NCBI GenBank assembly: GCA_039096225.1
Contig: JBBPEB010000005.1
Span: 429,501-493,500, forward strand
Direction of reading: 5' to 3'
DNA length: 64,000 nt
Origin: Blastocystis sp. Blastoise
Lineage: Eukaryota > Sar > Bigyra > Opalinata > Blastocystidae
Below the pieces are notes generated by a model. It saw only the letters and a list, made by a program, of their open reading frames with translations. It searched no databases and had not been told where the DNA came from. Positions 1 to 47,929 of the stretch are shown in pieces; the first letter of the stretch is position 1; each line of letters opens with the position of its first letter. A program made the translations under genes and the position numbers.

Positions 1-714
1 CACGATGACTAAACTCACCATTAAACATACTACTAAAATGACGTAATAATTCATCCATATCGACATTAGAAGCAGTAAAATTAGGATTTTCTTCAGTTGT
101 TCCAAAAGTATCATATTTCTTACGTTTCTCTTCATTTCCTAATATTTCATAAGCTTCACTAACATCTACAAATTTCTGTTTTGCATCAGGATCCTATTAT
201 AATATAATTAATATAATATTATTTAATTAAAAAAAAAAAAATTTTTTTTTTTAATTACTTTATTTGTATCAGGATGATATTTCTTTGCTAATTCAAAATA
301 TTTCTTTTTTATTTGAGCTTTTGTTGCATCACGAGAAACACCTAATATCTATATATTTATATAACAATTAAATATATTTAATATAATAAATAAATATATT
401 TATATAATAAATAAATAAATAAATAAATAAAAAATAAATTTAAATACAGAATAATAATCTTTTGCCAATGGTGTTGATGTAGAATGATAAGAAGAAACAA
501 ATAATATAGGAATAACCTAATGAATAAAATAACAATTTCTAATTATTTAAATAAAATAGAAATATACATTATTGTACGTTTTTTTATTATTATATGATAC
601 TAAATAACTTGGATTAACAACAAAACTTCTTGTATTTATTGTTGACGTGAATAATGAAAGACAAGGTTTTGATAATTTAATAAGATTTCTAGAACTACGA
701 AGTAAATTATTCAT
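1..714 (-). CDS. Mitochondrial-type DnaJ (Hsp40) co-chaperone, left copy, 5' part only
   Basis: This is the 5' portion of a type A J-protein gene, cut by the window start; the complete twin is at 46112-47929 on the plus strand. The start ATG is at 712-714 and exon 1 is 568-714. The encoded N-terminus is basic and Ser/Asn-rich, like a mitochondrial presequence. It is followed by the J domain with the HPD motif (YHPDTNK). Three introns are shared with the right copy. A fourth, present on the right, is absent here: the exon runs through unbroken at 52|53. From the family, the protein would be an Mdj1/DNAJA3-type matrix co-chaperone of Hsp70. Whether the left copy is intact further 3' cannot be seen. 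It shares its upstream region with the divergent ABC1K gene, but here that region is split by the insert of about 4.26 kb. Confidence 0.85.
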
Positions 715-1999
715 AAATAAATAAAAATGAATAAATGAATAAATAAATAAATAATGAAATAAGAGATTATAAAAATTGAATGAAAGAAATAAAAAACATG
801 AATATTGATAAGAATATAGTCAATTTTTTGAATTCTTTTGTGAATAATAATTGTTTGTTTAAAAAAGAAAAAAAGAAAAACTAGAATATTCCAAAGAATT
901 TGATAATTCTTGAAAATATTAATTATTAGAGTATAAAGAATAAATAAATCGTGATTGAGAACAAAGAACAACAATGGTTTCTCTTCATTTCTCTTTTTCT
1001 TTTCTTTAATCATTTTTCTATATATTATTCTTTGACTTTTTCTTTTGATTTTCTTAACAATTTGATATTTTGATTGATAAAGAAACTTTATTAATATTCA
1101 GATTATATCAGATTAAACTGATTTCTATTCATTATTCTTTAAAGAAACTGTCTTTATTTTCTTTTTTTATAAATATATATTAAAAAAAGAAAAGTAAAAT
1201 AAGAATTATAATATAATGAATTAGAATATAATATATATCGAATATTCTTCTCAATAATTCGTTTTTTCTTTCAGATAAATAGAATAGCATAAAAAAAAGA
1301 ACAACGAATCTTTTTCCCCATAAATATTTCTATTATATTAATATCCTTAATTTAGTTCTGCAAAAGTACGGTGTCTCACACAATTTCACATTTATTGACT
1401 TTGTTATTAACTTTTATAAAATAAAAATAACATCAAAAAATCCGGAACACAATTCTAAAAATGACTGTTAAAGAAATTTTTCGAAAACTCTAAATTTCTG
1501 GCTAAAAAACGCAAAAAACCATTTTCGCACAAAATTTTAACCAAAATTATTGGATTATTTTTATTTTATCCAATATTTTTCATTTTTATAAAAACACACA
1601 TTTTTCTATTTTCATTTTTTATTGTTTTCTTATTTTTGCTATATCACTTCACATACTCTATATTTATTTTTATAAAATTGACTTTTATTGACGGGTTGGT
1701 CTTATAAATAGTTTTGACGGGTAAATTTGTTTATATTAAGAACTTGACAACATATCAATACACACATCACTAACTATAAACTCTAAAAACATTTCATATG
1801 CAATGATACTGACCTCAACTACTCTAAAACCACAATAATTCCTTTAAATAACGACAAAAGACAAACTGATATCCGACACATTCCTTCTTTATAAACTTAT
1901 TTGAGTTTATTCAAGTGATTTTGAATCAATACATGTCAGAAATATGTCTTTTAGTTGTTTAAAAAGTTTTCATAAGAAAATATTTGATAATAGAAATTT

Positions 2000-3100
2000 T
2001 GATGTTTTGATAGTATAGTTTGTTATTCGTCTTTCTCCTTGAGTTTTGGGTATTTTTTAAAAATAAAAGTATAGTCATAATTAAGATAAGCTATTGCAGA
2101 TACATATTTTTTATTTTATCTAAATATTTAATATTGACTGAAAAATATTCATATATATGAAAAACATAAAAATGAAAATTTTCAAAAAAGGGTATAGTTT
2201 GTTATTGTGATTTCTCAGTCAATATTTAATAAAATATTTGAGTTAAAGTATATTTATAATTTAGACAACTCATAGCAGATACATGTTTTTCATTTTTTTA
2301 ATTAATTGAAAACTCAGGTCACAAGAGTCAATAGTTGAACGTAATAAATAAATGACTTTTGAAATTTTTCTTAAAAATTTTTCATTTGTTTTTTGTTTAT
2401 ACTCTCATCAATAATTAATATATTTGACATTTGACTATATATTTAAAAACTACATATCAAAATAAACATATTTTATTATTTTTTATGGTTTTTAAAAGAC
2501 TTTGATAGCAGATCACCAGACAATGTTAACTCAATAAACTCTAAAAACGTTTTAATTAGTGTTTAGAATGATTTATAGACATTGTACGTGACTTATTTGA
2601 AAAAGTTAAGACAGCATGTTGAACTGATACAGACAATGTTTGTTTTAAAAAGTCAGTTATGAGTCATTATGAGTTGTAAATATCATAAATAAGCTATAAA
2701 TAAATAAATATGCTTTTATTAGTCTTTAATTAGTGAAATAAATCGTTTAAAAAAAGAAAACATTTTTGATACTATAGTTTGTTTTGACAATTTCTCCATC
2801 AATATTAATTTTTAAAAAATAAATAAAACTTATTTATAAACTAGACAACCTATAGTTTATAAATTTATAAAAATATTATCAAAATATAAAATAACTTTTG
2901 AGATAAAAAATTATATATGCAAAACATAAAAATTATTTTTTTTGAAAAAAGGGTATAGTTTATCGTTTTAATTTCTCAGTCAATATTTTATTATTTATTA
3001 TAATTTTAACAAATAAATATAGAGAATAATATATATTAATAATATAATTTTTAATATTTGAAATTAATTAAAAAATGAGTTCAGTAGAGTCAATAGTGTA
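2000..3100. repeat. Degenerate direct repeat, unit about 760 bp
   Basis: Related blocks recur with constant spacing. TATAGTTTGTT followed by a TTTCTC...TCAATATT stretch occurs near 2012 and 2193, and again near 2770 and 2952. The motif GAGTCAATAGT occurs near 2327 and 3087. All three pairs are offset by about 758-760 bp, so roughly 2000-2340 is an old copy of 2760-3100. Confidence 0.6.
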
Positions 3101-45399: not shown

Positions 45400-46111
45400 A
45401 TATTTTTATTTATTATATTATTTTAATATCTATATATACTCAATAGAGAGTATATTTAATAATATATATATACTTTTTTTAAATATATATAATAGAAATA
45501 TTTATGGGGAAAAAGATTCGTTGTTCTTTTTTTTATGCTATTCTATTTATCTGAAAGAAAAAACGAATTATTGAGAAGAATATTCGATATATATTATATT
45601 CTAATTCATTATATTATAATTCTTATTTTACTTTTCTTTTTTTAATATATATTTATAAAAAAAGAAAATAAAGACAGTTTCTTTAAAGAATAATGAATAG
45701 AAATCAGTTTAATCTGATATAATCTGAATATTAATAAAGTTTCTTTATCAATCAAAATATCAAATTGTTAAGAAAATCAAAAGAAAAAGTCAAAGAATAA
45801 TATATAGAAAAATGATTAAAGAAAAGAAAAAGAGAAATGAAGAGAAACCATTGTTGTTCTTTGTTCTCAATCACGATTTATTTATTCTTTATACTCTAAT
45901 AATTAATATTTTCAAGAATTATCAAATTCTTTGGAATATTCTAGTTTTTCTTTTTTTTCTTTTTTAAACAAACAATTATTATTCACAAAAGAATTCAAAA
46001 AATTGACTATATTCTTATCAATATTCATGTTTTTTATTTCTTTCATTCAATTTTTATAATCTCTTATTTCATTATTTATTTATTTATTCATTTATTCATT
46101 TTTATTTATTT
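45400..46111. promoter_or_regulatory. Shared divergent upstream region ABC1K/DnaJ (right)
   Basis: The only sequence between the two divergent ATGs, and nearly identical to the left arm except for the insert there. It presumably carries both promoters. A minus-strand-equivalent open frame in the left arm (711-1013) is mirrored here and is simply AT-rich sequence. Confidence 0.45.
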
Positions 46112-47929
46112 ATGAATAATTTACTTCGTAGTTCTAGAAATCTTATTAAATTATCAAAACCTTGTCTTTCATTATTCACGTCAACAATAAATACAAGAAG
46201 TTTTGTTGTTAATCCAAGTTATTTAGTATCATATAATAATAAGAAAACGTACAATAATGTATATTTCTATTTTATTTAAATAATTATAAATTGTTATTTT
46301 ATTCATTAGGTTATTCCTATATTATTTGTTTCTTCTTATCATTCTACATCAACACCATTGGCAAAAGATTATTATTCTGTATTTAAATTTATTTTTTATT
46401 TATTTATTTATTTATTTATTTATTTATTATATTTATTTATTATATTATATATTTAATTGTTATATAAATATATAGATATTAGGTGTTTCTCGTGATGCAA
46501 CAAAAGCTCAAATAAAAAAGAAATATTTTGAATTAGCAAAGAAATATCATCCTGATACAAATAAAGTAATTTAATTTAATTTAATTTTTTTTTTTTTTTG
46601 TAAATTAAATAATATTATATTAATTATATTATAATAGGATCCTGATGCAAAACAGAAATTTGTAGATGTTAGTGAAGCTTATGAAATATTAGGAAATGAA
46701 GAGAAACGTAAGAAATATGATACTTTTGGAACAACTGAAGAGAATCCTAATTTTACTGCTTCTAATGTCGATATGGATGTATATAATATATAATATAGTA
46801 TATAGTATAGTATAATATATACTCTATAGGAATTATTACGTCATTTTAGTAGTATGTTTAATGGTGAGTTTAGTCATCGTGGAAGTCGATATGGATCGAA
46901 TCGTGGAATGAATACAGTATATGAATCTCAAGAAGGAGAAGATATACAATTAAATATACGTATTCCATTCTTAGAAAGTGTTCATGGATGTCAAAAAGAT
47001 ATACAATATTCTAAATTAGTAGCTTGTCCTCATTGTAATTCAACAGGTCATGAACCAGGAAGTAAACAATCTCAATGTCCACAATGTCGAGGAACAGGAT
47101 ATACTACTATTAATAATCCCTTTATGGGTATGATGCAAACTACTTGTCCTCAATGTGGAGGAAAAGGATCTATTTTTAAAGATATATGTAAGATATGTCA
47201 AGGAACAGGTCAAGTATATATATATGATATACTATATAATATATACTATATAATATATAATATATAATATATAATATATAATATATATATATAGTCTACA
47301 AAGAATACAACATTATCTGTAAGTATTCCTTCAGGTGTAGAAAATGGAGAACGTATTCGATTAATAGGACAAGGAAATATAGGTATATTAGGAGGACCTA
47401 AAGGACATTTATATTTACATATACAAGTATATATATAGTATATTATATAATAATAATAATAATAATAATAATATATAATATATAGACTATTCCTGATCCA
47501 TTCTTTTCAAGAGAAGGAAATAATATTATTTGTTCAGTTCCTTTAAGTTTATCTGAAGCTGTCTTAGGTACTCATATTCAAGTACCTACTATTAAAGGAC
47601 AAGTAGAAGTTAAAGTACCTCAAGGTACACAATGTAATACTAAATTAAGATTAAGAGGACAAGGTATATATAATAGTAAAACAAAACAACAAGGAGATCA
47701 AATACTTCAATTTAATGTTAAAATACCAAAGTATATATATATATTATTATATTTTTATTTATATTTATTATATTTCTATATTAGATCTTTAACTACTCGT
47801 CAACAAGAACTAATGACTGAATTTGCTAAAGAAGAAGGAAAAACTATATTTATACGTCCAAAAAATCATTTTGAAGATACATTACGTAGAATTAAAGATC
47901 ATCTTAATAAAAAAATCAATAAATTATAA
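46112..47929 (+). CDS. Mitochondrial-type DnaJ (Hsp40) co-chaperone, right copy, complete
   Basis: Eight exons (46112-46258, 46310-46378, 46476-46565, 46638-46778, 46830-47213, 47295-47426, 47486-47730, 47785-47929) give about 450 residues. A basic Ser/Asn-rich presequence precedes the J domain ([23 protein letters not shown] in YHPDTNK). Four CxxCxGxG-type zinc motifs follow ([32 protein letters not shown]), then the C-terminal substrate-binding domains ([24 protein letters not shown]). This is a type A J-protein of the Mdj1/DNAJA3 class, stimulating mitochondrial Hsp70. Intron 4 (46779-46829) is missing from the left copy. Confidence 0.93.

Follow-up and report, generated by a model that had tools for sequence, protein, structure and literature searches.

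Analysis of a 64,000-nucleotide stretch from Blastocystis sp. Blastoise, a gut protist of the opalinate stramenopiles with a genome of 33.3 Mb in 34 contigs, reveals two nearly identical, inverted arms carrying a DnaJ gene, an ABC1K (ABC1 atypical kinase) gene and ADA2 (SWIRM) sequence, between which six predicted GT-AG introns are present in one arm and precisely absent from the other. The arms probably descend from an intron-rich ancestor, each having lost different introns exactly, via complementary DNA (cDNA) of spliced RNA. The stretch, referred to below as the window, spans positions 429501–493500 of contig C31, and flanking DNA was added to it, 30 kb on the left and 20 kb on the right. 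Coordinates are window positions, negative ones lying to its left, and ABC1K introns are named by coding-sequence (CDS) position. The arms and the six introns are located as follows.

1..8557, no strand assigned: left arm of the inverted duplication, extending beyond the window to about -6436 (blastn and whole-arm alignment).
42530..53371, no strand assigned: right arm of the inverted duplication (blastn and whole-arm alignment).
46779..46829, + strand: DnaJ intron, right-only, 51 bases, phase 0, empty between 52 and 53 (alignment, gene model).
47427..47485, + strand: DnaJ intron (the sixth site), right-only, 59 bases, phase 0, empty between window -545 and -544 (alignment, model).
44767..44807, - strand: ABC1K intron, right-only, 41 bases, CDS 504, phase 0, empty between 6274 and 6275 (alignment, C34 paralogue).
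6541..6595, + strand: ABC1K intron, left-only, 55 bases, CDS 770, phase 2, empty between 44500 and 44501 (alignment, C34 paralogue).
7440..7482, + strand: ABC1K intron, left-only, 43 bases, CDS 1614, phase 0, empty between 43656 and 43657 (alignment, C34 paralogue).
42595..42644, + strand: intron of the truncated ADA2 (SWIRM) copy, right-only, 50 bases, empty between 8492 and 8493 (alignment).

At the five sites contained in the window, a sense-strand GT...AG segment faces an unbroken exon, and 25 bases on each flank are identical. These five had been claimed by a first-pass annotation of the window, and direct reading bears out each of them to the base; the count is nevertheless six, the empty partner of 47427–47485 lying outside the window. 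That annotation had also listed six shared introns, of which the three in ABC1K stand while DnaJ has five rather than three, two of them past the left window edge. Overall, 6 of 14 introns differ between the arms and 8 of 14 are common to both (DnaJ five, ABC1K three), the union of 14 comprising the seven introns of right DnaJ, the five of left ABC1K, the right-only ABC1K intron at CDS 504 and the intron of the ADA2 copy. Among 50-base stretches of the window, 0.16% start with GT and end with AG, corresponding to about 1e-17 for six, and chance is no candidate for the six segments. Junctions are exact in 6/6 cases, and no target-site duplication is present at the six sites, where the borders share 0–2 bases (microhomology of 1, 0, 0, 0, 0 and 2 bases). 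The polymorphic intron bodies are nearly pure A+T (GC 0–11%, n = 6), with ends of the form GTATA...TATAG that appear near-symmetric by eye.

The left arm ends at about window -6436, which pairs with right-arm position 53371 (blastn). A whole-arm alignment, made after removing a 4256-base stretch confined to the left arm, contains 52 mismatches in 10,625 aligned bases, a raw divergence of 0.5%, together with 20 indels, namely the six introns (41–59 bases) and 14 indels of 1–5 bases. The removed stretch is the sole other arm indel longer than 5 bases.

1339..5594, no strand assigned: 4256-base stretch without a right-arm counterpart (blastn, arm alignment).

Its first 3.3 kb show 92% similarity to window +78408..81759, and it is probably an interspersed repeat. 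The stretch also holds a long (AAATAG)n tract, and no stop-to-stop frame within it reaches 150 residues. The right DnaJ copy and the left ABC1K copy are open throughout, and their partners carry no exon indel relative to them in the alignment; together with the low mismatch count, this agrees with the first-pass view that the flanking exons are intact and near-identical and the changes recent.

Mismatches are unevenly spread along the arms. The longest mismatch-free run covers 2672 aligned bases (left 584–7610) and encloses all three ABC1K intron differences as well as the large insertion. A run of this length appears in 0/20,000 simulations with 52 independent mismatches and in 0.55% of those with 30 mismatch clusters. 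Across the ABC1K gene pair there are six mismatches, none exonic (0/6), and the DnaJ–ABC1K intergenic segment has no mismatch in 714 aligned bases, with two 1-base indels, one of them bordering the cut-out stretch. The run suggests that this stretch was homogenised recently and that the introns were lost only afterwards; alternatively, the cDNA itself homogenised the exons, or coding bases are under constraint. Because most of the mismatch-free 714-base spacer lies inside the run, homogenisation before the intron losses is favoured.

The direction of change is best read from the ABC1K pair, the two members of which are as follows.

5683..7682, + strand: ABC1K left copy, 588 residues, without the CDS 504 intron (model; Pfam ABC1, on P0121; WA158_007505).
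43455..45399, - strand: ABC1K right copy, without the CDS 770 and CDS 1614 introns (limits transferred from the left copy by alignment).

The public Blastocystis sp. Blastoise protein WA158_007505 is 100% identical to ABC1K across 88% of its length, and the exon joins agree. This protein (518 residues) omits the first ABC1K exons and starts at an internal methionine. The protein database gives the contig a length of 1,382,071, against 1,377,500 for the contig analysed, and a second assembly version may exist. With one right-only and two left-only introns, ABC1K confirms that differences run both ways within a single gene, and this two-way, scattered pattern does not fit a single cDNA-mediated event, as had been argued from the window alone. 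Searches with ABC1K recover paralogues on contigs C34 and C33. The C34 paralogue (L044, C34:73400–75900) has nine modelled introns and a 455-residue open frame, and shares 42% identity with ABC1K across 451 aligned residues. Specifically, its introns between GQ and T, in the codon that follows KIQH (phase 2) and between GYT and T correspond to the ABC1K sites at CDS 504, 770 and 1614, so that 3/3 polymorphic ABC1K introns match a C34 intron in both column and phase (9 introns, 1350 aligned bases), a coincidence with a chance of about 2e-7 under random positions. No motif common to the three sites that would mark a hot spot for parallel insertion was noticed by eye. Since position and phase are common to this distant paralogue, the three ABC1K introns are most likely older than the duplication, with one since lost from the left arm and two from the right. 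The C34 paralogue also has a 327-base intron composed mostly of tandem TATAT repeats.

The DnaJ and ADA2 pairs, listed below, carry the remaining three differences.

46112..47929, + strand: DnaJ right copy, seven introns, 450 residues (gene model; Pfam DnaJ, DnaJ_CXXCXGXG, DnaJ_C).
1..714, - strand: DnaJ left copy, five introns by alignment, the remainder lying left of the window (arm alignment).
8057..8716, - strand: open frame containing the SWIRM exon of left ADA2 (open reading frame; Pfam SWIRM).
42530..43077, + strand: truncated ADA2 copy, right (alignment; open reading frame).

By its domains the DnaJ protein is type A, and it is presumably mitochondrial; its best match outside its own genome, from Blastocystis subtype 4, reaches 48%. 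The database protein P0001 has an aspartate like the left arm where the right arm encodes asparagine, and is therefore taken as the protein of left DnaJ. Its gene model is 11 residues shorter than the one used here, at DnaJ intron 1. Paralogues give no polarity for DnaJ: in the search table, matches on C2, C25, C7 and C20 cross residue 321 unbroken, and the C20 paralogue has its intron at about residue 130, not 149, the two polymorphic introns lying after codons 149 and 321. Both polymorphic DnaJ introns are presumably losses as well.

The name ADA2 comes from the first-pass annotation; the SWIRM domain scores above the Pfam cut-off and the Ada2b model below it. The intron that had been reported in the truncated copy is indeed there. 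The left gene runs past 8557, near which its homology to the right copy ends. A genome search found no second SWIRM gene, the left ADA2 being the one match, and no outgroup emerged. The easier reading is that the intron is old, that the truncated copy has retained it and that the longer left gene has lost it: if the longer gene is expressed, cDNA-mediated loss there would be simpler than the arrival of a ready-to-splice intron in a dead fragment.

Precise absence is also seen in a family adjoining DnaJ, represented in the window by one gene.

48214–52839, - strand: intron-free He_PIG/F5-8C gene, 1541 residues, adjoining DnaJ.

This family is very large (the best 30 of 722 and the best 89 of 1119 first-look candidates were scored), and the loci examined have introns toward the 5-prime part or none. 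Locus L036 contains a 46-base intron that is exactly absent from L037, and at that site L039, the nearer outgroup, carries an intron that differs in sequence. Because that outgroup has an intron there, the L037 absence reads as an independent precise loss. Three further matches, two on C21 and one at C8:1703762, also start at the L036/L037 intron boundary. A further locus, L038, is without an intron held by L040–L043 and, at the matching site, by L036, where it measures 164 bases. Divergence of the intron-less copies is 2–4% for L037 and 12% for L038 against L041.

Active gain, by introner-like or low-complexity insertion of short (TA/ATA)n introns in both arms, is an unlikely account. The differences are per intron, as expected of insertions, the six bodies are almost pure A+T, and the published introner survey filtered low-complexity families, so that such a class may have been missed there (PMC9860276, in the portion available). 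The first-pass annotation had left gain and frequent precise loss side by side and proposed a search for relatives of the intron sequences; the region of one DnaJ intron gave 79 further genome matches, at 80–93% over short low-complexity stretches. Gain could apply to the three introns outside ABC1K, two in DnaJ and one in ADA2. Against it stand the ABC1K sites, 3/3 testable ones being common in position and phase to the distant C34 paralogue (one with a caveat about a (TA)n stretch, given below), the L037 site, which reads as loss by its nearer outgroup, the absence of target-site duplications and the low-complexity character of the similarity to other places. Of the two earlier options, precise loss is the one upheld by the paralogue, and introner-like gain finds no support at the ABC1K sites.

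An assembly or polishing artefact, in which RNA-derived reads erased short introns at random from one of two near-identical copies, appears quite improbable. It predicts exact GT-AG deletions over both arms, as observed, and all six introns are indeed short at 41–59 bases. Five introns of 38–54 bases nevertheless survive in both arms, and absences occur also in the diverged copies L037 and L038; at the site empty in L038, L036 has a 164-base intron. RNA reads are, moreover, seldom used for polishing. Genomic deletion or end-joining repair, with selection sparing only exact removals, is very unlikely. Several absences are single and internal, as it predicts, but exact junctions, microhomology of just 0–2 bases and the lack of any other deletion longer than 5 bases anywhere in the arm alignment, noncoding DNA included, fit an RNA intermediate better.

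Under cDNA-mediated loss, spliced or partly spliced messenger RNA would be reverse transcribed, and cDNA patches one or two introns long would enter the chromosomal gene by short gene conversion. Recombination or conversion between arms or alleles could then shuffle intron-minus segments, generating the two-way mosaic. If all six differences are losses and patches are contiguous, a minimum of five separate events would be needed, DnaJ intron 5 having survived between two absent introns; cDNA of a partly spliced transcript could account for that retention. Neighbouring introns are absent together in right ABC1K (CDS 770 and 1614) and not in left DnaJ. The genome offers a candidate source of enzyme: 21 RVT_1 matches were found, 20 of them over the curated cut-off and 13/21 within open frames 2400 residues long or more, so that putative reverse-transcriptase genes are plentiful. 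An examined 1564-residue reverse-transcriptase piece contains RVT_1 and no other Pfam domain. Same-scoring reverse-transcriptase genes also occur in pairs exactly 8591 bases apart on C10, C13 and C14 and 8496 bases apart on C29, each with an open frame of about 2420–2630 residues.

Several observations weigh against this interpretation. Within the arms, losses show no 3-prime bias in DnaJ or ABC1K, and the left DnaJ losses are non-contiguous around the kept intron 5. An internal, scattered pattern misfits one 3-prime cDNA patch; by analogy with Cryptococcus, recombination between alleles would produce it. Genome searches found no intronless DnaJ or ABC1K retrocopy, and the polymorphic introns (41–59 bases) do not differ significantly in length from the kept ones (38–97 bases; P 0.24). 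Regarding polarity, the C34 stretch at the CDS 770 site consists of 66 bases of (TA)n that begin with GT, end with AG and contain no in-frame stop, and could be coding rather than intronic; the CDS 504 and 1614 sites are independent of it, and the two coincidences left without it have a chance of about 1e-4 by our own arithmetic. The acceptor of the last C34 intron (between GYT and T) was picked to preserve homology. Two more distant C33 paralogues cross the first two of the three sites intron-free, and the ABC1K family has undergone other intron changes too. Among He_PIG genes, other members (e.g. C31:249876 and C23:431759, and intron-free ones) cross the L037 site unbroken, and the intron near residue 208 is present only in the L036/L037/L039 group, where it could be a gain.

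Other pairs also temper the rate. A near-identical C8/C16 pair differs at 0/5 introns by eye, and an HSP70 pair on C33 at 0/3, with identical exon spacing over 3 gaps judged from the table only. Pooled over four pairs, 7/27 introns differ (C31 6/14, L036/L037 1/5, C8/C16 0/5, HSP70 0/3), and the C31 pair, which was selected because of its differences, is the exception among them. No obvious close pair was found for tubulin. Three further HSP70 copies (C25:695280, C16:1451521 and C16:1552281) have equal scores and are unbroken over the matched domain, unlike the intron-bearing C33 pair. A stronger proposal, that very fast RNA-templated intron erasure is ongoing in this strain through patches of one or two introns, is tentative and rather doubtful. 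If true, introns would be lost orders of magnitude faster than point mutations accrue, leaving almost half of those in a recent duplication different with coding sequence almost unchanged, and loss would be directly observable in culture or between isolates.

At a threshold of E 1e-40, a DNA search with the 19.9 kb between the arms (best 39 of 4188 candidates scored) listed a single low-complexity stretch. A self-complementary TA-rich repeat at 19762–19932 and a long repeat coding poly-asparagine at 18318–18589 each resemble several other places in the window.

Regarding its wider bearing, exact intron removal has mostly been inferred from long-separated species, and a pair 0.5% apart makes the process testable. 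The case also carries a warning for AT-rich genomes: an intron present in one near-identical copy and absent from the other does not on its own count as evidence of gain. A literature search by strain name returned no papers, and the partial accounts retrieved on intron loss in Blastocystis apparently contain nothing on such copy differences.

Within the genus, Blastocystis ST7 has near-identical duplicated blocks, with about 99% coding identity (PMC3129679), and the passages of that paper available to us make no mention of intron presence or absence between copies. Introners resemble the present case in their clean presence/absence sites and short introns, and their families need not have target-site duplications or inverted ends (excerpts of PMC9860276); here, however, gain polarity is not found at the 3 testable sites, target-site duplications are absent and similarity between introns is low-complexity. 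Like Blastocystis here, Dictyostelium has an AT-rich genome. As far as the consulted parts of each source go, models of intron loss differ in their predictions (PMC4683709, PMC3652778), and the Dictyostelium study describes precise, mRNA/cDNA-mediated losses found between species (PMC4683709). The likeness extends to introns removed exactly at the splice junctions, to neighbours disappearing jointly (here in one arm) and to reverse-transcriptase genes, whereas here the copies are 0.5% apart, both are affected and no 3-prime pattern is seen. Cryptococcus shows internal losses, modelled as recombination of intron-minus with intron-plus alleles (PMC2395259, in part), and this model would fit the mosaic; the rate there is slow, in contrast to 6/14 introns in one recent pair. 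The rice study shares the design of duplicated genes with an outgroup. According to the sections available, 54/1095 intron positions differ between its segmental duplicates, with losses against gains of 49 to 5, a dS (synonymous divergence) peak at 0.6–1.4 and some pairs losing introns in both copies (PMC1779517), whereas here the figure is 6/14 at a raw divergence of 0.5%, in a single pair picked for its differences. Exact intron loss is therefore already known, also between segmental duplicates (PMC1779517, PMC4683709, PMC2395259, each in the parts seen); the Blastocystis arms are unusual in showing it so densely and so recently within one pair, and in both directions.

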